From [Mycobacterium] nativiensis (lineage in GTDB: Bacteria; Actinomycetota; Actinomycetes; Mycobacteriales; Mycobacteriaceae), in the NCBI RefSeq assembly GCF_020172685.1, contig NZ_CP083986.1, positions 3,970,067-4,034,066 of the forward strand: a stretch of DNA of 64,000 nucleotides, given 5' to 3'. The position numbers and the translations under genes were made by a program. The notes under the pieces are model-generated. The model was not told where the DNA came from. It saw nothing but the letters and a program-made list of their open reading frames with translations, and did not search any database. Positions within the stretch are counted from its first letter, which is position 1. Each line of letters opens with the position of its first letter. Of this stretch, positions 29,759 through 57,787 are shown one piece after another.

Positions 29759-29794
29759 CGGCCGCGGGCTCAATCCCCTTGGCCCCAAACACGG

Positions 29795-29832
29795 CAACGG
29801 CCGCCGAGTCCTTTCAGACTCGACGGCCGTTG
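29795..29832. terminator. Bidirectional terminator between the Rv3438-like gene and PGRS2
   Basis: CAACGGCCG-c-CGAGTC pairs with GACTCG-a-CGGCCGTTG around a CTTTCA loop: 15 pairs with one internal mismatch. It is placed symmetrically between two convergent genes, 36 bases after one stop and 17 after the other. Confidence 0.85.
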
Positions 29833-29849
29833 CTGTTGTTGGTCGGCGT

Positions 29850-32800
29850 TTAGCCAGCCGCACCCGCGGTGCCCGGAGTGCCGGCCGTGCCGCCGGTCCC
29901 GTCCGGGGTGCCGGTGCCGGCCGCGCCGCCGGCGCCGCCCTTGCCGAGCGCCCCGCCGGCGCCTGCCGTCCCGGTGCTCGCGCCACCGGTACCGCCATCG
30001 CCGCCGTGTCCACCGTCGGCACCGTTGCCACCACCGGCACCGTCGGTGCCGGCACCACCCGCACCTCCGACCCCGCCGGCCGCACCGGCACCGCCCTTGC
30101 CACCGGCGACACCCTCGGTGCCGACGCCACCGGTACCGCCATTGCCGCCGGTTCCGGCCGCGCCGCCGTTACCGGCGGTGTTGCCGGCGCCGCTGGCAGC
30201 GCCACCAGCCCCGCCGACGCCGCCGACGCCGCCGGCTCCGCCGACGCCGCCGGCGCCCGTCGAACCATTGGTGCCCGAGGTGCTCGCCCCGCCCAGCCCG
30301 CCGGACCCGGCAGCACCACCGTTGCCACCAGCACCGCCGGTACCGCCGTCGAAGCCGACACCGTTGTCCGTGCCGCCGACACCACCGGTCCCGCCCTTAC
30401 CGCCGGCACCACCAGTGCCGCCGGCGCCACCGGCGCCACCGTTACCGGTGCCCGACGTACCGCCGTTGCCGCCGACGCCAGCCGCGCCGCCGTTGCCACC
30501 AGTGGTGCCGTTGCCGCCGGCCGCGGTCGTGCCGGCGTCGCCGGCCGTCCCTGCGACCCCGGCCCCACCGGCGCCGCCCCGGCCACCGGTTCCACCGTTA
30601 CCGTCGAGCGCGCCGGCACCGGTGTTGCCCGCAGTTCCGCTGGTGCTGGCACCTCCGCTGCCGGCAATCCCGGCAGCGCCACCGGCCCCGCCGACACCAC
30701 CGTTACCGCCCGCCAGGCCGTTGCCCGCACTGTCCACGCCGCCAGTACCGCCGGAACCACCGGAGCCGCCGTTACCGCCCTTGCCGGCGTTACCGCCGGT
30801 CCCGCCGTTACCGGTGACCGAGTTGCCGCCGATGCCGCCGGTGCCGCCGGTGCCGCCGGTGGCGCCGTTGCCGCCGTTGCCGCCGGCCGTGCCCGCAGTG
30901 TCTCCGGAGGCAGTGCCGCCCGTGCTGCCGGCCGCACCGCTGACTCCGATGCCGCCGTTGCCGGCATTGCCGCCGTTGCCGCCGTTACCGGCCTCGGCGT
31001 TGCCGCCGTTACCGCCGGTGCCGCCGGTACCGCCACCGGAGGCGCCCCCGCCGCCGGTGCCGCCGTTACCGCCGTTGACAGTCCCGTGACCGTCACCGCC
31101 GTTGCCGCCGGCACCCCCGGCATTCCCGTTACCACCGAGTCCGCCGTTACCGCCGTTGCCAGCGTGGCTGGCCGCGATTCCGGCGGTGTTCGCCGGCACC
31201 GCGGTGCCGGCGCTGTCGCCGCCGTTTCCGCCGACGCCGCCGACGCCCTCACCCTTGGATCCGCCGGAACCACCGTTACCGCCGTTACCGCCGGTGGCCG
31301 TGCCGCTACCGCCGTCGCCGCCGGCGCCACCAACCCCGAGGGCGCTGGAGCCACCGTTACCACCGTTGCCGCCGACGCTGACACCGGTGGTGGCGCCGTT
31401 ACCGCCGGCACCACCGGCACCACCGCTGGCCGAGGTTCCTGCCGTCGAGCTGGGTCCGGCACCGCCATTACCGCCGTTGCCGCCCACGCTGTACACCGTG
31501 CCCGGGTTACCGGTGAAGACCGTGCCGTTCACGTCCCGCCACCCGGTTCCGGTGCCGCCGGCACCGCCATCGCCGCCGTTGCCGGCGGTTCCCGCGCCGG
31601 TCAGGCCGGTACCACCACCGGCCCCGCCGTTACCGCCTTGAGCGTGGTTGCCGGAGAGCAGGCCGCCGCCGGCGCCGACGGTGCCATTACCGCCGGCGCC
31701 ACCGTTACCACCGGTTCCACCGATACCGCTGCCGGGCGTACCACCGGTACCACCGGCACCTCCGTTACCGCCAAAGGTCTGGATGGTGTCGTCATCGGTG
31801 GCGCCGTTACCGCCCGCGCCACCATTGCCGCCCGCCCCGGCGGGCCCGCTGGCGCCGGCCCCGCCTGCACCGCCGTTGCCGCCATTGCCGGCAACACCTT
31901 GGACATTGGCAGCGCCGCTGGCGTCACCGCCGCGGCCACCGTCACCGCCGGCTGCACCCACGTGAGATCCGGTCGAGGCACCAGCAGCGCCGCCGACCCC
32001 ACCGTTGCCACCGTTGGTGACACCGGCGCCACCGGCGCCACCGATCCCGCCGATACCACCGGTGCCGTTACCGGCGTTGGCGCCGGCGCCACCGACGCCA
32101 CCGTTGCCGCCCTTGAGACCGTCACCGCCGAAACCGCCCGCGGCACCGTTGCCGGCGACACCGCCGCTGGTACTGCTCATGGGGTCACCGCTGTTGCCGC
32201 CGGCGCCACCGGCACCGCCGTTGCCGCCGTTGCCGAGGAAGTTGCCGCCTGCGTCCTTGAAGCCGTCACCACCATTGCCGGCCGCGCCACCAACGGCTCC
32301 GGTACCGGCGTGGCCCTGCTCCCAGAAGTTGCTGCCGGCCGCGCCACCTGCGCCACCTGCGCCGCCATTGCCACCGTTGACGTGGTCGACGGTGCCGGCC
32401 GCACCGTTACCGCCGGCGCCGGCCTTGCCACCGTCGCCACCATTGCCGAGGTTGAAGGCGCCACGCCCACCGGCACCACCGCTACCGCCGGCGGTGCCGT
32501 TGCCGTTGCCGCCGTTGGCGAAGCTGCCGGCCACGCCGTTACCGCCGTCGCCACCGAGACCGCCGTTACCGAAGGCCCAGGCCACCGAGGCGCCACCGTC
32601 GCCACCGTTGCCACCGATACCGCCGGCACCGCCGTCGCCGCCGTGGCCCAGGCCCCAGGCGCTCGCGCCACCATCGCCGCCTGCGGCACCGAACCCGCCG
32701 GTTCCACCGTCACCACCGTTGCCGAAGTACCCGAGTGCGTCGCCGCCGTTGCCACCGGCCACGCCGTCGACATCGCTGTTCCAGCCGGCCCCGCCGTCGC

Positions 32801-33239
32801 CGAACCACAACCCGCCGTCGCCGCCATCGGGGTTCAGCTCCGTGCCGGCTGCACCGTTACCGATCAGGTAGAGCCCGGACATCTCGTTGATGGCGTTGTT
32901 GACCAGCGCGCCGAAGTCGCTGTCGATCCAGGTGGTCATGCCCATGTGCAGCGGGGTGTAGAACCACTGGTCGAGGATGCTGACCATGTCGAACCCGGCG
33001 GGATCGAAGGAGGCGATTCCGGGGTCGACGTCGGCGGTGACGTCGGCCGGGGTGAGCCAACTGAAATCGAACAGGTCCTCGAGGCCCTCAGCCTGGGCCG
33101 CCGGCGCGCCGGCCAGCGGGGCCATCCCGAAGGCCAGGAATGCTGCCACCGTGCTGCCGGTGCCGATCGCCTGACTGCGGCGACCCTGTCCGTTCTTACG
33201 TTCTGAGCCCGGCTGGCTGCCGGTGTGACGACGAGTCAT
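29850..33239 (-). CDS. PGRS repeat-containing secreted protein (PGRS2), partner of gjpA-a
   Basis: The 1129-residue protein has a basic N-terminus (MTRRHTGSQPGSERKNGQ), a signal helix ([17 protein letters not shown]) and cleavage near AAQAEG. About 100 residues follow with DQWFYTPLHMGMTTWIDSDFG, LYLIGNGAAGTELNPDGG and [15 protein letters not shown]. About 970 residues of GNGG/GGAGG repeats end in GTPGTAGAAG. There is no PE domain. ATG at 33237-33239 follows AGGAGAGGTGTTCGCA, shared with PGRS3 and PGRS4. It starts 67 bases after the gjpA-a stop on the same strand, so the two are likely one transcript. A cell-surface or secreted role is inferred. Confidence 0.87.
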   Translation of the reverse strand: MTRRHTGSQPGSERKNGQGRRSQAIGTGSTVAAFLAFGMAPLAGAPAAQAEGLEDLFDFSWLTPADVTADVDPGIASFDPAGFDMVSILDQWFYTPLHMGMTTWIDSDFGALVNNAINEMSGLYLIGNGAAGTELNPDGGDGGLWFGDGGAGWNSDVDGVAGGNGGDALGYFGNGGDGGTGGFGAAGGDGGASAWGLGHGGDGGAGGIGGNGGDGGASVAWAFGNGGLGGDGGNGVAGSFANGGNGNGTAGGSGGAGGRGAFNLGNGGDGGKAGAGGNGAAGTVDHVNGGNGGAGGAGGAAGSNFWEQGHAGTGAVGGAAGNGGDGFKDAGGNFLGNGGNGGAGGAGGNSGDPMSSTSGGVAGNGAAGGFGGDGLKGGNGGVGGAGANAGNGTGGIGGIGGAGGAGVTNGGNGGVGGAAGASTGSHVGAAGGDGGRGGDASGAANVQGVAGNGGNGGAGGAGASGPAGAGGNGGAGGNGATDDDTIQTFGGNGGAGGTGGTPGSGIGGTGGNGGAGGNGTVGAGGGLLSGNHAQGGNGGAGGGTGLTGAGTAGNGGDGGAGGTGTGWRDVNGTVFTGNPGTVYSVGGNGGNGGAGPSSTAGTSASGGAGGAGGNGATTGVSVGGNGGNGGSSALGVGGAGGDGGSGTATGGNGGNGGSGGSKGEGVGGVGGNGGDSAGTAVPANTAGIAASHAGNGGNGGLGGNGNAGGAGGNGGDGHGTVNGGNGGTGGGGASGGGTGGTGGNGGNAEAGNGGNGGNAGNGGIGVSGAAGSTGGTASGDTAGTAGGNGGNGATGGTGGTGGIGGNSVTGNGGTGGNAGKGGNGGSGGSGGTGGVDSAGNGLAGGNGGVGGAGGAAGIAGSGGASTSGTAGNTGAGALDGNGGTGGRGGAGGAGVAGTAGDAGTTAAGGNGTTGGNGGAAGVGGNGGTSGTGNGGAGGAGGTGGAGGKGGTGGVGGTDNGVGFDGGTGGAGGNGGAAGSGGLGGASTSGTNGSTGAGGVGGAGGVGGVGGAGGAASGAGNTAGNGGAAGTGGNGGTGGVGTEGVAGGKGGAGAAGGVGGAGGAGTDGAGGGNGADGGHGGDGGTGGASTGTAGAGGALGKGGAGGAAGTGTPDGTGGTAGTPGTAGAAG

Positions 33240-33306
33240 TGCGAACACCTCTCCTGATGAAAAGTTCGGCTAGTTGTGGAAGTTGCTGGGGGGGTTGGGC
33301 GAGGGA

Positions 33307-34479
33307 TCAGCCGACCAGGCCGAGGTCGGAGAACATGTCGCCGAAGTTGAAGGCGTCCGCCATCGAGCTGCCGGCGCCGCCGTCGTCGATGACGAAGCCC
33401 TCGGGGGCCGGGATGTTGAAGACGGGGTCCTTGCCGTCCCACGAGCCCCAGCCGAGCTGCGACCCGATGACCTGCGACAGCCCCAGCCAGGCACCCAACG
33501 GGCCGATCGCGTCGCTCGGCGCGTGAAGGTCGCCGACGACCGGGATGCCGGTGAGGTCGAAGCCGATGCTGTTGAAGATCGAGCCGCCGGATGCCGGCGC
33601 CGTGGCGATCTCGTTCCCGTCACCATCCAGGATGTGCATGGGGCCGGCGGTGACGTGACCGCCGGTGCTGAACCATCCGCCGAAGGCGAAGTCCAGGTGG
33701 GTCATCACCATGCCGTCCGGCAGCAGGCCCGTATCGTTGATCGCCGGCAGCAGGCTGTCCAGGTTGAGGGTGGCGCCGTTGAGCGAGGCGTCGAACATGT
33801 TCGCCGGGATGTTGGCCAGGCCCTGCAGCGCCGCAGAGGTGTCACCGTCACGCAGGGCGCCGCTGATGTCGTCCCAGCTGTTGCTCATCGCGACCCAGGG
33901 CGCGATCCAGGGACTCACGGAGCCGAGCATGAGGGCGCTCATCGGCGAACCCAGGAAGTTGATGATCGGGGTGAGCGTCGCGGCCTGATCCTCCGGCAGG
34001 AAGCCCGGGACCTGGTTGAAAATGACTTCGTGCCCGCCGCTGAGGTTGCCGAGCAGGTAGCTGCTGTCCATGGTGTGGCGGATGACGTCGTTGATGGTGG
34101 CCTGATCGGCGTTCATCAAGGTGATCGCCGACCACGCGTTCTTGAAGTCCGTCTGAATCGCGCTGACCATCGCCGGGATGGTTGACGGGTCGTCGATCAT
34201 GCTCTGGACATAGCCCGAGAAGTTGTTCATGGCCTGCGTGAACCCGATGTCGGGCGCCGCGTTGTAGGAGGCCATCATCTGCGCGATGTTGTCCTGGGCG
34301 GTGTTGTAGGCCGCGACGTACGGGTCGGTGAAATCCGACAGGCTGAAGCCGGCCGTCAACGCCACGTCGTGGGCGATGAGGCTGGTCTGCATGGGCGCGA
34401 CCGCCGGGGTGACGGCGACGAGGCCGGCTCCCACGATCGCAACGCCGGCGGTGGCGTAGGGCTTGATGGCGTGGTGCAC
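33307..34479 (-). CDS. GjpA-family outer-membrane porin-like protein (gjpA-a)
   Basis: The 390-residue exported protein starts VHHAIKPYATAGVAIVGAG, a signal peptide ending near TPAVAP. The mature part has the blocks seen in all five copies here: VALTAGFSLSDF, an early helical part, a run like MLGSVSPWIAPWVAMSNSW, NGATLNLDSLLPAINDTGLL, DFAFGGWF and GGSIFNSIGFDLTGIPVVG. The family is commonly labelled 'outer membrane porin GjpA' after a Gordonia protein; porin activity in mycobacteria is not shown by the sequence. GTG start behind AGAGGAG. It is directly upstream of PGRS2 and downstream of two further copies on the same strand. Confidence 0.78.
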   Translation of the reverse strand: MHHAIKPYATAGVAIVGAGLVAVTPAVAPMQTSLIAHDVALTAGFSLSDFTDPYVAAYNTAQDNIAQMMASYNAAPDIGFTQAMNNFSGYVQSMIDDPSTIPAMVSAIQTDFKNAWSAITLMNADQATINDVIRHTMDSSYLLGNLSGGHEVIFNQVPGFLPEDQAATLTPIINFLGSPMSALMLGSVSPWIAPWVAMSNSWDDISGALRDGDTSAALQGLANIPANMFDASLNGATLNLDSLLPAINDTGLLPDGMVMTHLDFAFGGWFSTGGHVTAGPMHILDGDGNEIATAPASGGSIFNSIGFDLTGIPVVGDLHAPSDAIGPLGAWLGLSQVIGSQLGWGSWDGKDPVFNIPAPEGFVIDDGGAGSSMADAFNFGDMFSDLGLVG

Positions 34480-34630
34480 GACAGTCTCCTCTGTTCTAGG
34501 GCGCTTGGCTGTGTCGGGATCTCCACGGTGGAGAGCGACCTTGGATTCATCTGTTGGTGATCTGGTTAAGGGCTTTGGCGATACCGAATGCGCCTGGTTC
34601 TCGCTGGACGACTTCCGTTGACTGCGACGC

Positions 34631-34668
34631 GGGGGCCTCCGCCGCCGACTGCGGCGGCGGAGGCTCCC
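34631..34668 (-). terminator. Terminator after gjpA-b
   Basis: A GC-rich stem, GCCTCCGCCGCCG pairing with CGGCGGCGGAGGC (13 pairs) around a short loop, lies 17 bases past the gjpA-b stop and before gjpA-a, suggesting the two genes have separate transcripts. Confidence 0.7.
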
Positions 34669-34684
34669 GTCGTGGGCGTGACGC

Positions 34685-35767
34685 TTAGGCGCTCAGGCCG
34701 AACAAGTCGCCGAGGTCGAATCCACTGAGCCAGTCGACGTCGGCGACGCCCGCACCGGGATCGACCTCGGCCGGCTCCAGCGCGGGCAGCTCGCCGGACA
34801 GCCACTGCGCCAGGACGTTCTGCATCATCGCGAACGCGCCCAACGGCCCGATGCCGTTCGGCTCCAGGTCGAGTGTGTCCAGGAGGGGCACACCGGTGAG
34901 GTTGAGGCCCAGGGCGTTGAAGATCGAGCCGCCGACACTACCGATCAGGCTCTCGCCGGCACCGCCGTCCGTGACGCCCGCCACGGAGCCGGGGCTGAGC
35001 AGCCCGCCGAAGGCCAGGCTGATGCCGTCTACGCCCATGCCTTCCGGCAATAGCCCCGCACCCTCAAGGGCAGGCGCGAGTGCGTCCAGGTTAAAGGTTG
35101 CGCCGTTGAGCATTCCGTTGACCATGTTCGCCGGAATGTTCACCATCTCCTGCAGCGCGGCCGTGACGTCCGGGGAGGCACCGTCGGCGCCGCTGAGGTT
35201 GGCACTGATGGCCTCGAAGCTGTTGATCAGCGCCACCATCGGGCTGATCGACGGGCCCAATGCGGCGAACAGTTGACCACTGAGCGGTGACGCCGCGAAG
35301 TTGACGAGCGGCAGTAGGTCCTCGGGCAATGCGGGCTCGCCACCGGTCAACTGGCCGGCCGGGTCGGTCAGCACCATGTACACGACCGCGTGCAGGTCGT
35401 CCATGGTCTGCGGGGCCAGCGTGTTGAGGAAGGTCTTCTGGTCACCGGCCAGGAACGTCAGCGCGGCGCTGAGCTGGTTGAAGTCCAGCGTGCTGAAGTC
35501 TGCGGCCTTGAGCGCGTCGGTCAGGGCGCTGGAGGCGTCGGATGCGGCGGCCTGGACCGCGGTGAAGTTGTCCTTCGCGGTGTCGAATGCGTCCGTCCAG
35601 GCCTGGGTGAAGTCGATGTCGCCGAGCCCAACCCCGGCGGTCAGGGCCACTTCGGGCATCGGCTGGATGTCGACGGCGGAAGCGGCGGCCACCGGGGTGA
35701 CTGCGACCATGCCGGCTCCCAGCACCGCGATACCCGCGGTGACATAGGGACGAAGTGATTGGTGCAT
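34685..35767 (-). CDS. GjpA-family outer-membrane porin-like protein (gjpA-b)
   Basis: The 360-residue copy starts [19 protein letters not shown], signal peptide to about VAAASAVD. Family blocks are VALTAGVGLGDIDFTQ, FAALGPSISPMVALINSF, NGATFNLDALAPALEGAGLL, SLAFGGLLSPG and GGSIFNALGLNLTGVPLLD. ATG at 35765-35767 is six bases after GAGGAG; an ATG two codons upstream abuts the ribosome site and is less likely. The C-terminus is acidic (VDPGAGVADVDWLSGFDLGD). It has no PGRS partner of its own and lies between gjpA-c and gjpA-a. Confidence 0.77.
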   Translation of the reverse strand: MHQSLRPYVTAGIAVLGAGMVAVTPVAAASAVDIQPMPEVALTAGVGLGDIDFTQAWTDAFDTAKDNFTAVQAAASDASSALTDALKAADFSTLDFNQLSAALTFLAGDQKTFLNTLAPQTMDDLHAVVYMVLTDPAGQLTGGEPALPEDLLPLVNFAASPLSGQLFAALGPSISPMVALINSFEAISANLSGADGASPDVTAALQEMVNIPANMVNGMLNGATFNLDALAPALEGAGLLPEGMGVDGISLAFGGLLSPGSVAGVTDGGAGESLIGSVGGSIFNALGLNLTGVPLLDTLDLEPNGIGPLGAFAMMQNVLAQWLSGELPALEPAEVDPGAGVADVDWLSGFDLGDLFGLSA

Positions 35768-36168
35768 CGGCATCTCCTCAAAGTTCACATGTGAGCGAGT
35801 CGGACATAAGTCCACTGATGCAAGGTAGCTGATACGGAACTGAGAGGCAACGCGGGGTGTCCACTCAAGAAATCCACCCCGTTCCGGCCGGGTCCCACTC
35901 GATCCCCGACGGACAGTACGTCCAACCGCACAGAGAACCCGCAGTTCATAAGTGATATCGAGCGTTGCCAGATTTTTTTAACGTCCAACGGGTTACATTT
36001 CTTCGCCGCGCGTCTATTTTAGTGAAATCTCCTCTAACATTAGGGAAAGCTGAGAAATATCGTCACGCGAGAGGTGTCCCGCACGGCATGTGCCCCCAAC
36101 GAGAAACGGGCGCCTTGGCCGCGGTTTCACCCGCGGCCAAGACGCCCGTCGATCGGTTGAGGGTCGGC
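35768..36168. promoter_or_regulatory. Gene-free region between gjpA-c and gjpA-b
   Basis: This 401-base stretch contains the leftward control region of gjpA-b (right of 35768), an AT-rich patch at about 35950-36060, and the gjpA-c terminator at 36106-36149. No coding frame with support is seen. Confidence 0.5.
36106..36149 (-). terminator. Terminator after gjpA-c
   Basis: ACGGGCG-c-CTTGGCCGCGG pairs with CCGCGGCCAAG-a-CGCCCGT around TTTCAC: 18 pairs with one mismatch, 20 bases past the gjpA-c stop. Confidence 0.82.
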
Positions 36169-37215
36169 TTAGAACACCGAGCTGAGCCAGTCGCCGTTGA
36201 ACAGGTCAGCAAAGTCCACGGCACTGAGCGAGGCCGCCGCATCCGCGGGCAGCTCCGCATCGCCCCACGGCAGGCTGCCGTCGAGTACATGGGCAAGGAT
36301 CTGCTCCAGGCCCAGCCAAGCGCCCATCGGACCGACCCCTTGGCCGATCACGTCCATCTCGTTGAGGATCGGGACGCCGCTGAGGTTCAGGCCGAGCGCG
36401 TTGAAGATCGAGCCCCCGACACCCTCCCCCATGTTGGCGCTGACCAGCCCGGGACTGAGCAGCCCGCCGAAGGCGATGCTGACGTCATTGAGGGTGGTGC
36501 CCTCCGGCAGCGGGACGATATTGGCCTGCTCGATGAGCGGAATCAGGTCCTTGAGGTCCAGGGTGGCGCCGTTGAGGAAGCCGCCCAGCATGTTGGCGGG
36601 CAGGTTGACCATGCCCTGCAGCGCGGCCTCCCAGTCCGGGTTGTCACCGCTGATGTTGCCGATGATGTCCTGGACACCGTTGTTGAGCGCCACCATGGGG
36701 GCGATGCTGGGACCCAAGGCGCCGATCAGCACTGCGCTCAGCGGTGAGGTCGCAAAGTTGATCAAGTCCTGAGTCTGCTCGCCGGGCGCCGGGAACAGAT
36801 CCGCAGGGAACTGTCCGGTCAGCGCGTAATACAGCAATTGGTGGCCGGACAGGCCGTCACTGACCGACCAGATCGAAAGCGGATTGAGGAAGCCCTTCTG
36901 GTCGCCGCCGAGGAACGTCAGCGCGGCGAGGACCTCCTGCGGGTCGGTCGACGCCCAGTCCGGGTTGGCGGTCATCGCGTCCTTCAGCGCGGCCTGAGCA
37001 TCGGCGGCGGCAGCCTGAAGCGTGTCGGAGTTCGCCTTGGCGGTGGCGAACACGTCCTCCCACGCGGTGGTGAAGTCGAGGCCGGCGGTGAGTACGACGT
37101 CATTAACGTGGGCGGCGGGAAGAAGTGGCGCGGCGACGACCGGAGTGGCGGCGATCATGCTCGCGCCCAGCACCGCGACACCGGCGGTGACATAGGGACG
37201 AAGTACGTGTTGCAC
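36169..37215 (-). CDS. GjpA-family outer-membrane porin-like protein (gjpA-c)
   Basis: The 348-residue copy starts [19 protein letters not shown], with a signal peptide to about PVVAAP. Blocks are VVLTAGLDFTTAWEDVF, IGALGPSIAPMVALNNGV, NGATLDLKDLIPLIEQANIV, SIAFGGLLSPG and GGSIFNALGLNLSGVPILN. It is closest to gjpA-b in length and in its start region (GAGGAGATGCC before the start). GTG at 37213-37215 was chosen; the open frame upstream is unrelated. It is divergent from the FAAL gene at 37467. Confidence 0.77.
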   Translation of the reverse strand: MQHVLRPYVTAGVAVLGASMIAATPVVAAPLLPAAHVNDVVLTAGLDFTTAWEDVFATAKANSDTLQAAAADAQAALKDAMTANPDWASTDPQEVLAALTFLGGDQKGFLNPLSIWSVSDGLSGHQLLYYALTGQFPADLFPAPGEQTQDLINFATSPLSAVLIGALGPSIAPMVALNNGVQDIIGNISGDNPDWEAALQGMVNLPANMLGGFLNGATLDLKDLIPLIEQANIVPLPEGTTLNDVSIAFGGLLSPGLVSANMGEGVGGSIFNALGLNLSGVPILNEMDVIGQGVGPMGAWLGLEQILAHVLDGSLPWGDAELPADAAASLSAVDFADLFNGDWLSSVF

Positions 37216-37466
37216 AGGCATCTCCTCAGTGGTGAGACTCGACATAAACCGACTTACATTTAGACAAGTTACTTGAGAGTAGCTTCGGCGACAAGGAGGA
37301 ATTCCCCTGCGCCGGCCTGAGCTCGCTCTCATCGAGGCGAGATCAGAGGTTGCCTGGGGTTGCCTCGCGTCACCCACGCGAACGGCATCCGGTGGCAGCC
37401 GATATGTTGGGTCCTCGCTCGGGCACAGTGGTCAACAACGATCCGCACGACGGTTGAGGTGAAGAC

Positions 37467-39281
37467 ATGCCAGCGAACACCCATCCCACCCTGGTCGACC
37501 TCCTGCGCCACCAGGCCGACCGGCGCGGCGACAAGCTCGCGTTCACCTTCACCGTGGACGGCCAGAGCGAACAAGACCGGTTGACCTACCGCGAACTCGA
37601 CGCGAAGGCACGAGCGATCGCCGCAGGCCTGCAGCGCGCGGGCGCAACCGGGCGCCGGGTGCTGGTGATCTGCCGGCCCGGATTAGACAGCGTGGCAGCA
37701 TATTTCGGCTGTCTGTATGCCGGAGCGGTGGCGGTACCGGTGCAGGACCGGCTGGTTCGGCTGATGGCGATCGTCCCCGATGCGCGCGCCGGTCATGTCC
37801 TGGCCGACGCCGAGACGCAGACCCGGGTCAAAGCCGCCGTGGACGGCATGGTCCGCCGGCCACTGCAGTGGTCACTGCCGGAGGCGCCACTCGAGGACGC
37901 CGAGAGTTGGACCGCCCCGGACATCCACGCCGGCACCACCGCGATGATGCAATACACCTCCGGGTCCACCCGCGCGCCCAAGGGCGTGGTGTTGACCCAC
38001 GCCAACCTGTTGGCGAACCTGGCCGCCATTCACGAAGCCTGGGGCGGAACTGAGAACGATGTCGCCGTGTACTGGCTGCCCCAGCATCACGACATGGGTC
38101 TGATCGGCGGGATTCTGGAGACCGTCTACGTCGGGTGCAGCACCGTGCTGCTGTCGCCGGCGGGTTTCATCACCCGCCCGATCCGCTGGCTGGAGGTCAT
38201 TTCGCGTTACCGGGGCACCATGACCGCCGCGCCGAACTTCGCCTACAACCTGTGCGTCGAGCGCTCCACCCCGGACGAGCGTGCGGCCCTGGACCTGTCC
38301 AGCCTCGCCACCGCGATGAACGGCGCCGAACCGGTGCACGCCGAGACCCTGCGGACGTTCGCCGAGGCGTTCGCCCCGTCCGGGCTACGCCCCCAGGCGT
38401 TGATGCCGGTGTATGGACTGGCCGAGGCCAGCCTGCTGGTTTCGGGCGGTTCCGAACACGACACCCCGCTGATCCGCTGGGTCGACCGAGGCGAGCTCGG
38501 CGCGGATCGCATCGTCGACGCCGACCCCGAAGCCGCGACCACGGTGAGTCTGGTGAGTTGCGGTCGGCCCCGGGGCGGCCAGCGCATCGTCATCGTCGAC
38601 CCGGAGACCCGCCGGCAGCGTGGCGCCGAGGAGGTCGGCGAGATCTGGGTCGCCGGGCCCAGCGTCGCAGCGGGGTACCGCGGTAAACCCGAAGACACCG
38701 AGAAGACGTTCGGGGCGTACCTGGCCGACACCCGCGAGGGCCCCTTCCTGCGCACCGGGGACCTGGGCTTCCTGCACGACGACGAGCTGTTCATCACCGG
38801 GCGCTGCAAGGACCTGATCATCCTGGCCGGAAACCACTACTACCCCAACGACATCGAGTCGACGGTGCAGGCGTGCCACCCGGTGCTACTGGCCGGCCGT
38901 GGCGCCGCCTTCTCGATCACCTCGGAGGCCGGCACCAGCGAGCAACTCGTCGTAGTCCAGGAGGTGGCCCGCCAGCGGATCCAAGAGAGCGATCTGCCGC
39001 ATCTGGTCGGTGCCGCCGGGGCCGCACTCGGCAAGCACCACGGTGTCGTGCCGCATCGGTTCGTACTGGTCGATCAGATGACCATTCCGACCACGTCCAG
39101 CGGCAAGATCCAGCGCAGCCGCTGCCGGGAGATGTTCCTCGACGGCGAGTTGGCGGCGCTGTTCGACTGGACCGCCCCGGCGCCCGATGGCACTGTGATG
39201 GACCCGGATTCGGCCGCCAAGCGAGCCGCGCTCATCCAGCAGGCGGTGGCGAACCACCAGTTGAAGACGCAGAGGCGCTGA
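37467..39281 (+). CDS. Fatty-acyl-AMP ligase (FAAL1, FadD-type)
   Basis: The 604-residue adenylate-forming enzyme has P-loop motif YTSGSTRAPKGVVLTH (residues 163-178), WLPQHHDMGLIGGI, NGAEPVHAETL, the hinge region GDLGFL, FAAL-type ITGRCKDLIILAGNHYYPND and the catalytic lysine in TTSSGKIQR. FAALs activate long-chain fatty acids as acyl-AMP and normally hand them to a polyketide synthase or acyl carrier protein. No such partner is encoded nearby. It is divergent from gjpA-c (251-base gap) and convergent with PGRS3. It is less similar to FAAL2 and FAAL3 than those two are to each other. Confidence 0.9.
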   Translation: MPANTHPTLVDLLRHQADRRGDKLAFTFTVDGQSEQDRLTYRELDAKARAIAAGLQRAGATGRRVLVICRPGLDSVAAYFGCLYAGAVAVPVQDRLVRLMAIVPDARAGHVLADAETQTRVKAAVDGMVRRPLQWSLPEAPLEDAESWTAPDIHAGTTAMMQYTSGSTRAPKGVVLTHANLLANLAAIHEAWGGTENDVAVYWLPQHHDMGLIGGILETVYVGCSTVLLSPAGFITRPIRWLEVISRYRGTMTAAPNFAYNLCVERSTPDERAALDLSSLATAMNGAEPVHAETLRTFAEAFAPSGLRPQALMPVYGLAEASLLVSGGSEHDTPLIRWVDRGELGADRIVDADPEAATTVSLVSCGRPRGGQRIVIVDPETRRQRGAEEVGEIWVAGPSVAAGYRGKPEDTEKTFGAYLADTREGPFLRTGDLGFLHDDELFITGRCKDLIILAGNHYYPNDIESTVQACHPVLLAGRGAAFSITSEAGTSEQLVVVQEVARQRIQESDLPHLVGAAGAALGKHHGVVPHRFVLVDQMTIPTTSSGKIQRSRCREMFLDGELAALFDWTAPAPDGTVMDPDSAAKRAALIQQAVANHQLKTQRR

Positions 39282-39284
39282 GCT

Positions 39285-39313
39285 GGTCGCACCGCCCGCT
39301 GGGCGGTGCGACC
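39285..39313. terminator. Bidirectional terminator between FAAL1 and PGRS3
   Basis: GGTCGCACCGCCC and GGGCGGTGCGACC form a perfect 13-base stem with a three-base loop, four bases after the FAAL1 stop and 12 after the PGRS3 stop. Confidence 0.88.
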
Positions 39314-39325
39314 CTCGTCGCGGTC

Positions 39326-42949
<3,624 letters not shown>

Positions 42950-43019
42950 TTGCGAACACCTTTCCCTGGGAACAGCCCTGCTGAGAAGTTGGAATTAACC
43001 GGTGGAGTTGGCTTTTCGG

Positions 43020-44267
43020 TCAGCCACCCAGCGCAGTGATGATGCTGGCCATCCAGTCGGGGACGTCGCTGGCAGTGGCGACCGAGCTCAGAAACTCCTC
43101 GACCGCGCTGCTGCTGGCCGCGGCGGCGCCACCGGCGGCGCCGCCGTCGAAGAAGCTGTCGGGGATGGTCGGGATGCTGAAGCCGCTCAACGGCGGTTCG
43201 GCGGGTGGCGGGGTTCCGTTCTTGCCGTCCCAGGCCCAGGCTTGCCCGCCGAGCAGGCCCGCCACGGTCTGAGACCACGCCTCCCAGGCCCCCCACGGGC
43301 CGATCGCGACGGGGTCGACGTTGAGCGGCAGGGACGTCCCCGCCAGGCTTGCCGTGATGTTCAGTCCGAGACTGTTGAAGATCGAGCCGCCGACGGCCGG
43401 GATCGAAACAACGGAATCTCCACTGGAGTCGAAGAGTTGGTACGGGGCGTTACTCACCTCGCCGCCGCTGAGCATTCCGCCGAAGGCGAAGCTGAGGCTG
43501 TTGAGGGTGGTGCCGGCCGGCAGCGGCAGCAGACCCGACTGCTCGATCAGCGGGATCAGGCCGTCGAGGTTGAGGGTGGCGCCGTTGAAGTAGGCACCGA
43601 ACATGTTGGCCAGCGTCTGTCCGATGCCGTCGCCATCGGTGAGGCTGTTGGCCAGTGCGACCCAGGGGCTGATGGAGGGCCCCAGGGCACCGATGATCAT
43701 GGCGCTCGCCGGTGACGCGAGGAAATCGATGATCGGCGTCAGCGTCGCGGCTTGATCGGCCGGCAGGAAGTTCGGAAGCAGCTGGAACAGTGCCGCATGG
43801 CCGGCCTCGATGCCGATGCTGCCATCAGGATTGGAAACGACGTCGAATCCCGGGTTGAGCGTGTGCAGCGTGGTCGTCGTGATGGTGCTCGCATCGGCGC
43901 CCAACAGGGTGAAGGCATCGTTCACCGCTTTGAGATGCGTCTGCATCTCGTTCATCACGTTGGGAATGTTCGCCGGGTCGTCGAAGATCTGCTGGAAGAA
44001 GGCGGCCTGATTGGCAATGAACTGCTGCAGTCCGACAGCCGGAGCCAGGAAGAAGTTGTTGGCCAGCTGGGTAGCGTTGGTCGACATTGCGTTGAACACG
44101 TCTTGCCAGGGCGCCAAGGCGTCGGGCAGGGTTCCACCCGCCGCGAGCGCGACGTCCCGGAAGGCGGGGACGTCTGCCGGCGGTGCGGCCACCGGCGTGG
44201 CCGCGATCAGGCCGGAGCCGACGATCGCGATGCCGGCAGTGACATAGGGGCGAAGGTATTGCTGCAC
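43020..44267 (-). CDS. GjpA-family outer-membrane porin-like protein (gjpA-d)
   Basis: The 415-residue copy starts [19 protein letters not shown]; the signal peptide ends about VAAPPAD. Blocks are VPAFRDVALAAGGTLPDALAPW, IGALGPSISPWVALANSL, NGATLNLDGLIPLIEQSGLL, SFAFGGML and GGSIFNSLGLNI. It is longest of the five because of an extended C-terminal Ala/Ser-rich part (FFDGGAAGGAAAASSSAVEE). GTG at 44265-44267 follows AAGGAGACGG. Upstream DNA is a near copy of that of gjpA-e, with a shared promoter. It precedes PGRS3 by 70 bases. Confidence 0.78.
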   Translation of the reverse strand: MQQYLRPYVTAGIAIVGSGLIAATPVAAPPADVPAFRDVALAAGGTLPDALAPWQDVFNAMSTNATQLANNFFLAPAVGLQQFIANQAAFFQQIFDDPANIPNVMNEMQTHLKAVNDAFTLLGADASTITTTTLHTLNPGFDVVSNPDGSIGIEAGHAALFQLLPNFLPADQAATLTPIIDFLASPASAMIIGALGPSISPWVALANSLTDGDGIGQTLANMFGAYFNGATLNLDGLIPLIEQSGLLPLPAGTTLNSLSFAFGGMLSGGEVSNAPYQLFDSSGDSVVSIPAVGGSIFNSLGLNITASLAGTSLPLNVDPVAIGPWGAWEAWSQTVAGLLGGQAWAWDGKNGTPPPAEPPLSGFSIPTIPDSFFDGGAAGGAAAASSSAVEEFLSSVATASDVPDWMASIITALGG

Positions 44268-44530
44268 AGCCGTCTCCTTTGTGAGGTGCCGCCCTCGGCG
44301 AACGCCCGAAGAAGACCGTGACGCCGCCGTGTTGCTCCTGGATTGACGCTTGTTCACTGATGTGAAATAGGACACTAACCGTGAGGTAACTAAGACACAA
44401 GCATTTGCATCAGATTGATTTTGGCAGCGTATTCACAGCTCACACGGTATGCCACCGATATGTCGTCCTGCGATACCCCTTCGTCAACTATGAGTACACA
44501 CTGAGACCGCTCGGGAGACATGTTCCCGAT
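44268..44530. repeat. Upstream region duplicated between gjpA-d and gjpA-e (copy 1)
   Basis: This region matches 48715-48962. Shared blocks include CAGCCGTCTCCTT, GAGGTGCCGCCCTCGG, CGCCGCCGTGTTGCTCCTGG, TTCACTGATGTGA, ACACTAACCGTGA and, farthest upstream, ATGAGTACACACTGAGACCG followed by TCGGGAGAC. The middle part (about 44405-44480) has diverged. Both ends being conserved suggests function beyond the promoter itself. Confidence 0.75.
44372..44400 (-). promoter_or_regulatory. Predicted promoter of gjpA-d
   Basis: On the minus strand TTGTGT (44395-44400), 17 bases, then TAGTGT (44372-44377). The same two hexamers with the same spacing precede gjpA-e although the spacer differs in sequence, which supports a real promoter. 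Confidence 0.55.
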
Positions 44531-44692
44531 ATGACGCACTACCCGGCGTTTTCTGGTAGTGGACCCGGCTGCGGATGGCTGTGCGGTGCACCGCCGTCTT
44601 CTCGCCGTGTTACCCCCGCGCGCGGTGGTGTGGCCCCATCGAAACCGAAGGGGCAGCAGCTCCCTGAGGGCGAACTCCAGAACGCTCAGAAA

Positions 44693-44736
44693 CGACCACG
44701 GTCGCCGAGTCCGGGTGGACTCGGCGACCGTGGTCG
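44693..44736 (-). terminator. Terminator after PGRS4
   Basis: A perfect 19-base inverted repeat, CGACCACGGTCGCCGAGTC and its complement, encloses CGGGTG, 14 bases past the PGRS4 stop. Confidence 0.9.
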
Positions 44737-44750
44737 CTTTCAGCTGTCGG

Positions 44751-47471
44751 CTACGTGCCCGGAGTGCCGGCCGCGCCGGTGTCGCCGGCGGTGCCGGCCG
44801 TGCCCGCCGTTCCCGGGGTGCCGGTACCGGTGGCCGCGCCAGCTGCACCCGCCGAGCCGGCACCGCCACCGTTGCCGCCGGTACCCGCGGCTCCGCCCGT
44901 GCCGTTGCCGGCGCCGCCGGTGCCGTGGCCGCCGCCGTTGCCGCCCTTGCCGCCGTCACCGCCGTCACCGCCGTTGCCGCCGTTGTAGCCATTGCCGGTG
45001 TCGGGGTTGGTGCCGCCGGGCCCACCGTTGCCACCGCTGCCGCCCCAGCCGCCCGAACCACCGGCACCACCGTTGCCGCCGGTCCCGGAAGTAGAGGCGC
45101 CGCCGACGCCACCATTGCCGCCGTTGCCGCCGGCATTGCCGTTACCGGCATTGCCGCCGGCCTGGTTGGCGCCACCGGGCAGCAGCGGTATGCCGCTGGT
45201 GCCGTCAGCACCGCCGTCAGCCGTACCGCCGGTACCACCAGTGCCGCCGGTACCGCCGTTGCCGGCCGCCGCGGTACCGCCGGCGCCGCCGTCGCCGCCG
45301 TTGCCCGCGGTGACACCGTTACCGCCGGTGCCACCCGCACCACCGGTGCCGCCGCCGACCGAACCTGCTCCGGCACCGCCGGTGCCACCGTTGCCGCCGA
45401 GGCCGCCCGCACCGCTGGACGAGGCCCCACCGCCGGAGCCACCGGCACCGCCATTGCCGGCGTGGCTGGTGCCGAAGCCGGCAGGTCCACCGGCCGGGGT
45501 GGCGACGCCGCCGCTGTTGCCGCCGGCACCGCCGTTACCACCCGCGCCGCCGTTCGACTTCTCGGAGAGGCCCGCGTAACCGGAACCACCGGTACCACCG
45601 TTGCCGCCGTTGCCACCGGATGCGGTGCCGTTGCCACCTGCACCGCCGTCAGCGGCCACGCCGGCGGTCCCGCCGCCGCTGCCGGCACCGGCGCCACCGC
45701 CGGTCCCGCCGTTGCCGCCGATGCTGATGACACCGGCGCCGGTCGCGCCGTCGGCACCGTCCGCGGCGGCACCGCCGTTACCACCGGCGAGGGTCGGGGA
45801 GTTTGCGTCGCCGCCGCTGCCGCCGTTGCCGCCGTTACCGCCGATGCTCCAGATGTTGGTCCCGTCGTTCCAGCCGGTGCCCTTACCGGCCGCGCCGCCG
45901 TCACCGCCGTTACCGCCGGCGCCGGCGGAGTTGTAGCCGGCACCGCCGCCGGTACCACCGTTGCCGCCTCGCAGTGTCCCGTTGCCGGCAGCGCCGCCGT
46001 TGCCGCCGGTACCGCTGGCGCCGGTGTTGCTGCTGCCGCCTTGGCCGCCCGTGCCGCCGTTACCGCCGGTGGTCGCGACCGAGGCGTCATCGGTGGCACC
46101 GTTGCCGCCGTGCCCGCCGTTACCACCGAGCCCGCCGATGCCGGTGCCGGCGGCGGAACCGCCGCCACCACCACTGCCTCCCAGGCCACCACGGACCAGG
46201 GCGCCCAGGCCGCCCGTGCCGCCGTCGCCGCCGGTACCGCCGTTGTTGGCACCCTGCGATTCACCGCCATACCCGCCGGTGCCACCGTTTCCACCGGTGT
46301 TTCCGTCACCGCCGGCACCACCGGTGCCACCGTTGCCGCCCTGATCACCGCTGCCGCCCGTGCCGGCAGAACCACCGGCCCCGCCGTTGCCGAGGTAGTC
46401 GCCGCTGGCGTCCTTTGCCGCCTCACCGCCGGCGCCACCGTTGCCGCCGTCCGCGCCGTCTCCGGTCTGCCCGGCGCTGCCGTAGAACGAGCCGGCGTAG
46501 TAGTCCGAACCGCGGGCGCCACCGGCGCCGCCGTTGCCGCCGCGGCCACCGACGCCACCGGCCAGACCGTTGGTTTCCCCGGTCGTGCCGTTTCCACCGT
46601 CGCCGGCGGCGCCGCCGGCACCGCCCTTGCCGCCGTCGCCGAACATGAAACCGCTGCGGCCGCCGGCACCGCCGTTGCCGCCCTGGCCACCGCTCATACC
46701 CGTGCCGGTGACGTTCTGGGTGCCGTCCATACCCGCCGCGCCGGCCCCACCGGCGCCGCCGTTGCCGAAGAACCAGGCCGCCGCCGCGCCACCGTCACCG
46801 CCGGCGCCACCGAAACCGCCCGCTACGGTCGCTGCGCCGCCCGCACCACCGGCGCCGCCATGACCCATGAACCAGCCGCCGGCACCACCGTCACCGCCGC
46901 CGGCACCCGCCCCGCCGTCACCACCGGCGCCGCCATTGCCCAGCCAGCCCAGCGCAGAGCCTCCGTCACCGCCGGCCACACCGGCGTCTGTGCTGTCCCA
47001 ACCGGCACCGCCGTCACCGAACCACAGCCCGCCGTCACCACCGTTGGGGTTGTCCTCGGTACCAGCGAGACCGTTGCCGATCAGGTGCATACCGGACCAG
47101 TCGTTGATCATCCCGTCGATCGATGAACCGAACGGACTGGTGATCCAGAGCTGGACGGCGCCGTGCAGCGGCTCGTAGAACCACTGGTCCATGATCGAGT
47201 TCCAGGAGAACGCGTCCCCGGCCGCGCTGCCCGGGGCGAACAACGCGTCGAAGTCCCAGGTGGCCGCGGCGTCGCCGGGGCCACCCGACGACAGGAAGTC
47301 GCCGAAGATGTCGCCCAAGTCGAAATCGACATCGGCGTGGGCGGCGGGCGCCGCGGCCAACGGGGCCATCCCGAAAGCCAGGAACGCCCCCACCGCACCG
47401 GTGGCACCGACGACCCTTCTGCGGTACCGCGCTGCGGTCTTACCAGGCTGGCTGCTGCTGCGACGACTCAT
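44751..47471 (-). CDS. PGRS repeat-containing secreted protein (PGRS4), partner of gjpA-e
   Basis: The 906-residue protein starts [19 protein letters not shown], signal helix [19 protein letters not shown], cleavage near AAHADVD. An acidic stretch ([17 protein letters not shown]) and the conserved region [39 protein letters not shown] and [15 protein letters not shown] precede about 700 residues of Gly-rich repeats, ending [14 protein letters not shown] at 47469-47471 follows GGAGAGGTGTTCGCAA; the open frame upstream covers the gap and part of gjpA-e in another frame. It starts 82 bases after the gjpA-e stop. Confidence 0.87.
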
Positions 47472-47553
47472 TTGCGAACACCTCTCCTGTAAAGCGGTTC
47501 TGTAGAGCAGGGGTGAAGTTTGTTGGGGGTTTCGGTATTGCGGGCGCGCCAGA

Positions 47554-48714
47554 TCAGATTTCGATGCCGAGCAGCGCGTTGATGATGTCCTGGAAGTCCA
47601 AGCCCGCCAGCGCGTCGGAGGCGACGCTTGAGCCCGTGCCGCCGTCATCGAACAACGAGTCCGGGATGGTCGGGAAGTCGATCCCCGGCCACGGCGGGCC
47701 GACCTCGACGGGACCCTTGCCGGTCCAACCGGAACCGAGCAGCGCACCGACGGTCTGCCCCCAGGCCTGCATCGCCGCGATCGGGCCGACGGCCTGGCTT
47801 TCGATGTCGATGGGTATCCCGGGCAGGATGCCGGTCTGCAACGTGATGCCCAGGGCGTTGAACATAGATCCGCCGACCGCCGGAACGTCCACCATGTTGC
47901 CGCCGACGTCCACCTGGTAGGGACCCACAGCCACCGAGCCGGGGGTCAGCAGGCCACCGAAGGCGAAGTCCAAATGGGTGATGTCGGTGCCCTCCGGCAG
48001 CAGGCCGGTCTGCGCGATCAGCGGGAGCAGGAAACCCAGATCGAGCTTGGCGCCGTTGAGCAGGCCGTCCGTCCAGCTGGCCATGATCTGGTTGAAGCCG
48101 TCACCGTCTTGGATGCTGTTCATCATCGCGATCCACGGGCTCAGTGACGGCCCCAGCGACCCCATGATGATGCCGCTCAGCGGAGAAGCCATGAAGTTGA
48201 CGATCGGCGTGGCCACCGAGGCCATGTCGGCCGGCAAGAACTGCGGCAGCAACTGGTACAGCAGGTCGTGGCCGATCGCAAAGGTGGTGAGGTCACTGCC
48301 GCTGAGGGTGTGGAAGTTGACCATCTGGATGGTCTCCGCCGAGGCATTCTGCAGTGTGTAGCCCGTCAGAACCGCGTCGAGGTTGTGCTGGATCTGCTGC
48401 ATCACGCCCGGGATCTTCGACGGGTCGTCGAGGACGCTCTGCCAGAACTGGGTCTGGTTGGCCAGCATCTGCTGGAACGCCACCCCCGGGGCCAGCAGGT
48501 AGTTCTGGGTGAGGATGGTCGCGTTACGTGAGGCTTCGTTGAAGACTTCCGTCCACGGCGCCATCAGGTCGGGCAGGCCGCCACCCGCGGTAAGCGCGAC
48601 GTCCCGGAATACGGGTACGTCTGCCAGCGGAGTGACCGCCGGGGTGGCCGCGATCAGGCCGGAGCCGACGATCGCGATACCGGCGGTGACATAGGGGCGA
48701 AGAGTTTGCTGCAC
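47554..48714 (-). CDS. GjpA-family outer-membrane porin-like protein (gjpA-e)
   Basis: The 386-residue copy starts [19 protein letters not shown]; signal peptide to about AVTPLAD. Blocks are [71 protein letters not shown] and [10 protein letters not shown]. It is most like gjpA-d over the N-terminal half. GTG at 48712-48714 behind AAGGAGACGG. It heads the gjpA-e-PGRS4 pair and is divergent from the oxidoreductase-FAAL genes. Confidence 0.78.
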
Positions 48715-51904: not shown

Positions 51905-52018
51905 CGCGGAGCGTGCGGCGGCTACCCCGCGCCCGGTTCAGGCCCGTCCACCGGCCGAGGCACTCCCCGAGTCGGGCCGATTGTGGCCCGCGACACCCCG
52001 CAGGCCAAGATAAGGGCC

Positions 52019-56458: not shown

Positions 56459-57787
56459 TCAGCCGCCGCGCACCGTCTCGGCGACGCTGGCCGCGATCTG
56501 ACGCGCGGTGTCTTCATCGGCGGCTTCCACCATCACCCGAACCAGCTGTTCGGTTCCGGAGGGGCGCAACAGGATTCGTCCGGTGTCACCGAGCTCCTCT
56601 TCGGCCCGCTGCACTGCGGTGCGCACCGCAAGGCGCCCCACCGCGGCGGCCTTGTCGGTGACCTCGACGTTGATCAACACCTGCGGCAGCGTGCGCATCG
56701 CCGAGGCCAGGCCGGCCAGCGGGGTGCCGGTCTGCGCCATCCGCGCCATCAGCCGCAGACCGGTGATGACGCCGTCACCGGTGGTGGCCAGCTGCGGCAA
56801 CACGATGTGGCCGGACTGCTCACCGCCGAGGGTGAAGCCACCGGCCCGCAGCTGCTCCAGCACGTAGCGGTCGCCGACGTCGGTGGTGTGCACGGTGATC
56901 CCGGCCTCCCGCATGGCCAGGTGCAGTCCGAGATTGCTCATCACGGTCGCCACCAGGGTGTCGTCAGCCAGCTCGCCGGCGTCGCGCATCGCCAGCGCCA
57001 ACACGACCATGATGGCGTCGCCGTCGACCACCTGACCTGCGGCGTCGACGGCCAGGCAGCGGTCGGCGTCGCCGTCGTGCGCCAGGCCCAGGTCCGCACC
57101 GTGCGCGAGCACCGCGGCACTCAGCGGTTCCAGGTGCGTCGAGCCGCAGCCGTCGTTGATGTTGAGCCCGTCGGGATCGGCGCTGATCGCGATCACCGTG
57201 GCGCCGGCGGCCCGGTAGGCCCGCGGCGCCGCCTGGAAGGCCGCGCCGTGCGCGCAGTCCACCACCACGGTCAGGCCGTCCAGCCGGGTGCGGTTGGATT
57301 CGCCGAGGTGGCGCAGGTAGCAGTCCAGGGCGTCCTTGGCGTCCACCACCCGGCCCAGCCCGGCACCGATGGGGCGCAAGCCGGGGCCGGCGGCGACCAG
57401 ATCCTCGATCTGGTCCTCGGTGGCATCGTCGAGCTTGTGCCCGCCGGGGCCGAAGAATTTGATGCCGTTGTCGGGCATCGGGTTGTGCGACGCGGAGATC
57501 ATCACCCCGAAGTCGGCCTCATAAGCGCTGGTCAGAAAGGCCACTGCCGGGGTGGGCAGCACGCCGGCCCGCAGCACGTCGACGCCCTGGCTGGTCAGCC
57601 CGGCGATGACCGCGGCTTCCAGCATCTCGCCGCTGGCCCGCGGGTCACGGCCAACGACGGCCACCCGCCGCTCGGTGCCTTGGGACAGCCGTTGTGCTGC
57701 GGCGCTGCCCAGCGCAACGGCCAGCTCCGCAGTCAGTTCGCGGTTGGCAACCCCGCGGACTCCATCGGTGCCGAAAAGTCGACCCAT
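56459..57787 (-). CDS. glmM: Phosphoglucosamine mutase
   Basis: The 442-residue phosphohexomutase starts [20 protein letters not shown]. Its phosphoserine is Ser100 in [16 protein letters not shown]. The metal loop is DGDADRCL and the sugar-binding loop GGEQSGH; the phosphate-binding loop [15 protein letters not shown] is near the end. It converts glucosamine-6-phosphate from GlmS to glucosamine-1-phosphate for UDP-GlcNAc. It is downstream of rpsI with a terminator-like hairpin between them. Confidence 0.97.

Follow-up and report, generated by a model that had tools for sequence, protein, structure and literature searches.

When two gene families stand side by side three times within one short stretch of DNA, do they form a true gene unit, and do their products work together? 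The question was raised by a stretch of 64,000 nucleotides (nt) from [Mycobacterium] nativiensis, called the window below, in which a gene of the GjpA family is followed three times, on the same strand, by a gene for a PGRS protein with a signal-peptide-like start. PE_PGRS proteins are much studied yet poorly understood. The GjpA and PGRS families were already known; the unit, its confinement to a single clade and its multiplication were not found in print in the open-licence literature searched. Our analysis showed that the pair is almost certainly a real, conserved gene unit.

Gene pairs in the window and in other genomes

All three pairs were located on the minus strand, and their open frames, coordinates and spacings of 67, 70 and 82 nt agreed with the original prediction. 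In pair A, a GjpA-family gene with a GTG start (33307..34479; 356 bits against NF033942) was separated by a spacer of 67 nt (33240..33306), which contained a ribosome-binding leader before the ATG and no strong hairpin, from a signal-peptide PGRS gene of 1129 amino acids (aa) (29850..33239; 42.1 bits against PF21526, no PE match). A perfect terminator-like hairpin of 18 base pairs (bp) lay 3' of this PGRS gene (29794..29833; -36 kcal/mol). Pair B was composed of a GjpA-family gene, also with a GTG start (43020..44267; 426 bits), a spacer of 70 nt (42950..43019) and a signal-peptide PGRS gene of 1207 aa (39326..42949; 44.9 bits), followed by a terminator-like hairpin of 16 bp with a bulge (39278..39317; -31.5 kcal/mol). 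Pair C had the same arrangement, with a GTG-started GjpA-family gene (47554..48714; 477 bits), a spacer of 82 nt (47472..47553), a signal-peptide PGRS gene of 906 aa (44751..47471; 42.5 bits) and a perfect 18-bp terminator-like hairpin (44695..44734; -39 kcal/mol). The spacers of pairs B and C were included in the leader and hairpin scan of spacers, and structures were modeled for the GjpA protein of pair C and for the N-terminus of its PGRS protein. GjpA genes were assigned with the NCBIfam model NF033942, "outer membrane porin GjpA" (curated cut-off 100 bits), and PGRS genes with the Pfam model PF21526 (gathering cut-off 27 bits). Glycine accounted for 43-45% of the three PGRS proteins. In a Pfam search read up to E 1, these three proteins gave no match to the PE domain (PF00934), and none of the six proteins of the window pairs matched a PE or PPE domain. 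The near-identical leaders at the PGRS starts, AGGTGTTCGCAATG / AGGTGTTCGCAAATG, were present in the window as predicted.

The source genome, a single contig of 5.28 Mb, contained 12 GjpA-family genes above the cut-off and 42 PGRS matches, 39 of them above the cut-off. Seven of the 12 GjpA genes were directly followed by a same-strand PGRS gene and five were unpaired; the paired seven were the seven best-scoring GjpA genes of the genome, and the units were scattered over five places. With roughly 5,000 genes assumed, about 0.1 adjacent pairs would be expected by chance, compared with the 7 observed. The pairs are related by duplication and are therefore not independent events, so the tree-based counts given below are a better test than this estimate. 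In one unit of the source genome (L062 2409-5348) the gjpA gene was followed by two PGRS genes, with a tRNA-like stretch, read by eye, after the second.

The nearest named relatives of the window GjpA proteins were Mycolicibacter species of the M. terrae group; the Mycolicibacter-type group consists mostly of environmental mycobacteria. Among 60 sampled genomes of the same GTDB-type genus, a GjpA match above the cut-off was found in 20 and a PGRS match (E 1e-5 or better) in 42. Two single-contig genomes of this sample had 6 of 13 (G022) and 4 of 7 (G016) GjpA-family genes paired, and the three single-contig Mycolicibacter-type genomes combined, the source genome included, had 17 of 32. The lack of linkage elsewhere that would have spoken against the original prediction was not seen within Mycolicibacter, where the linkage held beyond the window. 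In one of the six G022 pairs, the GjpA gene was split over two frames (L080 11038-12286), either because the gene is broken or because of an error in sequencing. The signal-peptide PGRS profile gave no match behind the fetched GjpA genes of seven other genomes (G006, G013, G020, G021, G023, G047, and G049). Named genomes were scanned with an alignment of the 12 GjpA proteins of the source genome, and the best 80 of 110 confirmed matches, at 70 loci, were analyzed. Among these best 80 of 110 matches, which do not allow absence from a species to be read off, 15 assemblies contained pairs; Mycolicibacter is the title genus of 14 of them, and the other is Mycobacterium sp. UM_WGJ. Several loci carried two or three gjpA-PGRS units in tandem.

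Descent and transcription of the pair

For the GjpA tree, 95 rows of the named-genome scan, less 5 fragments or broken genes, were combined with 12 rows from the source genome and 28 from the other genomes to give 130, which were reduced to 123 at 97% identity, with the short fragment L092 and the broken L080 gene excluded. These 123 proteins were labeled as paired (74), unpaired (43), or unsettled (6). All 74 paired rows fell within one clade of 79 (SH-aLRT 98), whose remaining members were three unpaired rows and two at contig ends, so that 74 of the 77 members with enough downstream sequence carried a PGRS partner. The pairing label required 4 changes on the 123-row tree, 3 of them forced by well-supported branches, and none of 500 shuffles gave a number as low. 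One row labeled as unsettled, L077_8684, stood just outside the paired clade and was unpaired on inspection. A more careful tree of 40 rows also placed the 26 paired rows, together with 3 unpaired ones, in one clade (support 99/94; 3 changes), and the grouping of the 26 paired rows with L107_983 was not rejected in it (p-AU 0.247). The branch next to the paired clade was formed by proteins of Gordonia and Mycolicibacterium.

The PGRS partners were compared by their N-termini, with export signals of both proteins judged by eye. In the 42 PGRS genes of the source genome, the N-terminus mostly showed a basic start, a hydrophobic stretch, A-x-A, and a linker, followed by a conserved region carrying P-[LI]-H and W-I, and then by a LIGNG-like segment that opened the PGRS domain. 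The 16 PE matches of this genome were located away from the PGRS genes, and signal-peptide-like starts appeared to replace PE in a large PGRS family (L032-L061, L063, L064, L067-L075, and 7909-11973 of the window). A profile built from 55 paired N-termini, those of the window included, matched 115 places in the three single-contig genomes, or 30-44 per complete genome, and one kind of these proteins travels with an envelope protein. The 17 best places (243 bits or more) comprised 16 paired genes and the second PGRS gene of the gjpA-PGRS-PGRS unit, and those ranked lower (221 bits and below) were unpaired except for one paired gene at rank 24, a ranking that is partly by construction because paired N-termini made up the profile. 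The motif CG.IC just before the PGRS domain occurred in 14 of the 35 genes of the source genome that were not directly paired and in none of the 68 paired N-termini. Conversely, QW[FIVL]Y occurred in 54 of 68 paired proteins and in 3 of the 35 others of the source genome, one of the three being the tandem second copy; tried as a pair-specific motif, it proved typical and not absolute.

The two partners shared their history. The start of the PGRS gene was called by script in 68 of the 74 paired rows, and 65 of these were used in a distance test, in which GjpA distances and PGRS N-terminal distances were correlated with r = 0.73 (best of 2000 permutations, 0.16). The subfamilies of the two proteins also agreed (13 against 10 groups; adjusted Rand 0.90). 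The correlated distances show inheritance as a unit and are no proof of contact, and the gjpA-PGRS unit has very probably been duplicated whole, giving at least six old subfamilies.

Among the 68 pairs with a called PGRS start, spacers measured 47-100 nt (median 67.5) and were nearly constant within most subfamilies, with 78-87 nt in the subfamily of pair C and 47-57 nt in the largest. The leader core AGGTGTTC preceded 36 of 68 PGRS starts and AGGT preceded 61 of 68, over many genomes; because the start caller favors an ATG with a ribosome-binding site, the presence of the site, like the ATG at 68 of 68 starts, is partly by construction. The leader is thus common but not universal, and a figure of 67 of 68 pairs was discarded, since it came from a broad list of variants written after the variants had been seen. 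No 40-nt hairpin under -15 kcal/mol was found in any of the 68 spacers. Gene ends were judged at -25 kcal/mol instead of the initial -15, because random G+C-rich stretches often pass the latter (84/136, 125/150, and 116/150). At this threshold, hairpins followed 47 of 57 PGRS 3' ends, all three of the window among them, compared with 7 of 150 length-matched random stretches. Directly after the stop of unpaired GjpA genes they were present in 18 of 27 cases (27 of the 43 such rows, 22 from the scan and 5 from the source genome), compared with 6 of 150 random stretches. A terminator-like hairpin was therefore mostly found after gjpA when the gene stood alone and after PGRS when it was paired. 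Two PGRS ends lacked a hairpin under -15 kcal/mol, and the idea that a second PGRS gene followed exactly these two was true for own_g4911550 and false for L108_4. Given the hairpins after PGRS and spacers free of terminator-like hairpins, the pair very probably forms one transcription unit. The original prediction of a two-gene module was upheld as regards conserved order, subfamily-specific spacing, inheritance and duplication as a block, and hairpins placed as for one unit; the porin role that it gave to GjpA did not fare as well.

Possible roles of the two proteins

The porin-like outer-membrane role had been taken from the name of the family. The AlphaFold2 monomer model of the pair C GjpA protein consisted mostly of helices, together with a small sheet, and showed no barrel (pLDDT 79.5, pTM 0.71), and no solved fold matched it in Foldseek under E 1. 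The best 19-residue Kyte-Doolittle average after the N-terminal signal was 1.28-1.49 in the three paired GjpA proteins of the window, and since no stretch exceeded 1.5, these proteins are predicted to have no clear membrane-spanning helix. Among the aligned GjpA rows, 41 of the 45 paired ones had a tail motif, W..GK, compared with 1 of the 17 unpaired ones; as an invention for PGRS binding it was ruled out, because a Gordonia protein without PGRS has W..GK too.

In the mechanism that we propose, gjpA and then PGRS would be read in one transcript that ends at the terminator after PGRS, for which the sequence evidence is strong. Both products, with their export-signal-like starts, would be carried across the inner membrane by Sec, or perhaps by Tat, and not by the ESX system used for PE_PGRS proteins. 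The PGRS protein would be a PE_PGRS relative in which a signal peptide replaces the PE domain and, by comparison with its family and with PE_PGRS models, would fold into a glycine-rich sheet in or on the mycomembrane. According to a model put forward in PMC9436101, PGRS sheets have a hydrophobic edge that lies in the outer leaflet, and the placement at the mycomembrane was made by analogy with this model. As a guess, GjpA would be a mainly helical envelope partner that helps PGRS to arrive at the mycomembrane, to insert into it, or to remain there. The different subfamilies would represent different partner sets, and the unit would accordingly have been duplicated whole. Taken as a whole, the partner model (one unit, export free of ESX, and GjpA as a dedicated envelope partner of PGRS) has a little less than an even chance of being correct. 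Its fullest form, two-partner display at the mycomembrane, in which GjpA would be a dedicated escort or anchor, PGRS sheets would reach the surface without ESX, and the units would have multiplied as matched sets, is rather doubtful. If cooperation is real, it would offer a simple way, independent of ESX, to study how PGRS sheets reach the mycomembrane and stay there.

Several observations weigh against a dedicated partnership. GjpA was found without PGRS in Mycolicibacterium houstonense, M. senegalense, Gordonia jinhuaensis, and M. shimoidei (L150, L151, L152, and L156), so GjpA has a role that does not require PGRS. Three unpaired GjpA proteins (L107_983, L107_4624, and L146_6001) lay inside the paired clade; judged from them and from the tree position of Gordonia and Mycolicibacterium, the ancestor of paired GjpA was most likely an older GjpA working without PGRS. 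About 97 of the 115 PGRS matches in the three genomes had no adjoining GjpA gene above the cut-off, so PGRS proteins as such need no GjpA. The tree of PGRS N-termini, weakly supported with few informative columns, gave no paired clade (5 changes, 1 of them forced, with 8 unpaired proteins intermixed), and neighboring genes inherited as a block give correlated trees even without interaction. Hairpins under -15 kcal/mol were present in 84 of 136 random same-length stretches of the window, but the freedom of the spacers from them is mostly a matter of composition, because spacer G+C is 0.53 and same-composition shuffles of the spacers reached -15 kcal/mol in just 8 of 204 cases; what counts in the spacers is that a terminator-like hairpin is not there. 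Finally, the GjpA model had no fold match, and the start of GjpA was atypical as a signal, with no clear cleavage site. Because the probabilities given here are based chiefly on the clade and on the gene-end hairpins, the weaker spacer comparison and the corrected leader figure leave them unchanged.

The placement of the hairpins would fit equally well if the two genes only shared a promoter because both products are needed under the same conditions, with no contact or help between them. The GjpA family is an old one that is also found elsewhere without PGRS, and in the sister genes L107_4624 and L146_6001 a fatty acyl-AMP ligase gene lies 77-80 nt downstream, occupying the place of PGRS, so the position after gjpA may be just a useful spot. 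Shared regulation alone, however, would require neither the preference for one kind of PGRS N-terminus nor the tracking of one partner by the other across at least six subfamilies, although inheritance as a block also gives tracking. Such co-expression without cooperation is quite possible, if not the reading that we prefer. An accidental neighborhood that arose once and was then copied in tandem and to dispersed places, with the linkage kept by proximity, agrees with the single group of paired rows that was not rejected in the 40-row tree, with the loci carrying two or three units in tandem, and with block inheritance. It is unlikely, because, although the clade is deeply divergent and the units are scattered (over five places in the source genome), PGRS has been kept in 74 of the 77 members with enough downstream sequence, and because in the three genomes the sole high-scoring PGRS gene of this kind that had no gjpA of its own directly in front was the tandem second copy, in a ranking that is partly by construction. 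A different form of cooperation, in which GjpA would be a helical, oligomeric pore in the mycomembrane and PGRS would cover or gate its outer mouth, would suit the NCBIfam name of the family. It would also suit a pore-forming protein of Gordonia jacobaea, which we presume to be GjpA. The isolation of that protein is mentioned in PMC4559739. With a monomer model that has no barrel and no clear membrane-spanning helix in the paired proteins, this arrangement is very improbable.

Two-partner secretion (TpsB/TpsA) is similar in gene order and would-be role only, and a Pfam search of the pair proteins of the window, read up to E 1, gave neither a TpsB barrel with POTRA nor a TPS domain. PE_PGRS proteins (PF00934 plus PF21526) share the glycine-rich PGRS domain, for which the PF21526 cut-off was reached. 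The LIG[N/D]G at the start of the domain resembles the GRPLI motif that passages of PMC7550000 and PMC10216338 describe for PE_PGRS proteins, with G-R-P not kept here, and the N-terminal model predicted two short helices before the PGRS domain, as in PE_PGRS proteins. The proteins studied here differ in having no PE domain, a signal-peptide-like start, and a gjpA gene in front, and are presumably exported by Sec and not by ESX-5, for which PE_PGRS proteins are described as substrates in part of PMC9436101. PE_PGRS proteins are described as typical of pathogens in passages of PMC11939664 and PMC10216338, and the former, a 2025 review, mentions PGRS proteins with uncertain N-termini in M. smegmatis and Mycolicibacterium. 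PE/PPE pairs are likewise two-gene units of exported mycobacterial proteins, and for one of them co-transcription and a heterodimer are described in part of PMC3586085; the gjpA-PGRS pair differs in its lack of PE and PPE domains, its signal-peptide-like starts, and the long PGRS domain on the second protein. In LipY, according to passages of PMC7550000, it varies between species whether the domain stands behind PE, PPE, or a signal peptide. Its export part is thus exchangeable, as for PGRS and GjpA here, but LipY is a single lipase and not a two-gene unit. The GjpA proteins of Gordonia jinhuaensis and Mycolicibacterium houstonense belong to the same NF033942 family (377 and 397 bits), and the Gordonia protein has the W..GK tail of paired GjpA. 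Unlike paired GjpA, they are encoded without an adjacent PGRS gene and close to a fatty acyl-AMP ligase gene, and they have about 180-220 extra residues beyond the family match, which are of low complexity in the Gordonia protein.

Neighboring genes and PE-GjpA fusions

Two further GjpA-family genes without a PGRS partner, absent from the original prediction, were located on the minus strand in the same cluster as the three pairs, at 34685-35767 (longer start 35815; 199 bits) and 36169-37215 (longer start 37377; 194 bits), followed by hairpins of -38 and -37.6 kcal/mol, respectively. Three stand-alone fatty acyl-AMP ligase genes were also present in the window on the plus strand (37467-39281, 50084-51904, and 51983-53842). 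The whole cluster of GjpA, PGRS, and ligase genes was flanked by a glmS-like gene (26930-28798) and a glmM-like gene (56459-57787). A glmS flank was also seen at L156, L160, L162, and L166, where GjpA was present without PGRS.

Ligase genes were recurrent neighbors of GjpA. They occurred in the fetched GjpA flanks of 29 of the 70 scan loci, and the four loci from outside the Mycolicibacter group were all among these. Of the 8 GjpA loci of other sampled genomes, 5 had such a neighbor (L088, L089, L093, L094, and L095) and 3 did not (L090, L091, and L092). The source genome had 12 fatty acyl-AMP ligase genes at a stricter threshold, and the chance of finding one at a given locus was estimated at a few per cent. 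Examples within or next to GjpA clusters were seen in Mycolicibacter, Mycolicibacterium, M. shimoidei, and Gordonia (L107, L146, L150, L151, L152, L156, and L064).

In all five GjpA-like proteins scanned from G006, G023, and G047, a PE domain was found N-terminal to GjpA (86-99 bits). These PE-GjpA fusions were encoded at L093 (2583-3845 and 14328-15569), L094 (3811-4950 and 5165-6430), and L095 (2656-3933), and each of the three loci also contained a distant fatty acyl-AMP ligase gene. Judged from the sequences, the GjpA and PGRS families each occur behind a PE domain elsewhere and behind a signal peptide here, as in LipY, and the two kinds of start would fit a common outer-envelope destination reached by either export route. 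The PE-family control search also gave a match in E. coli, where a mycobacterial family would not be expected. At L041 of the source genome, near 4110330, a run of N stood beside a translated stretch that we take to resemble a library adapter, probably an assembly scar.

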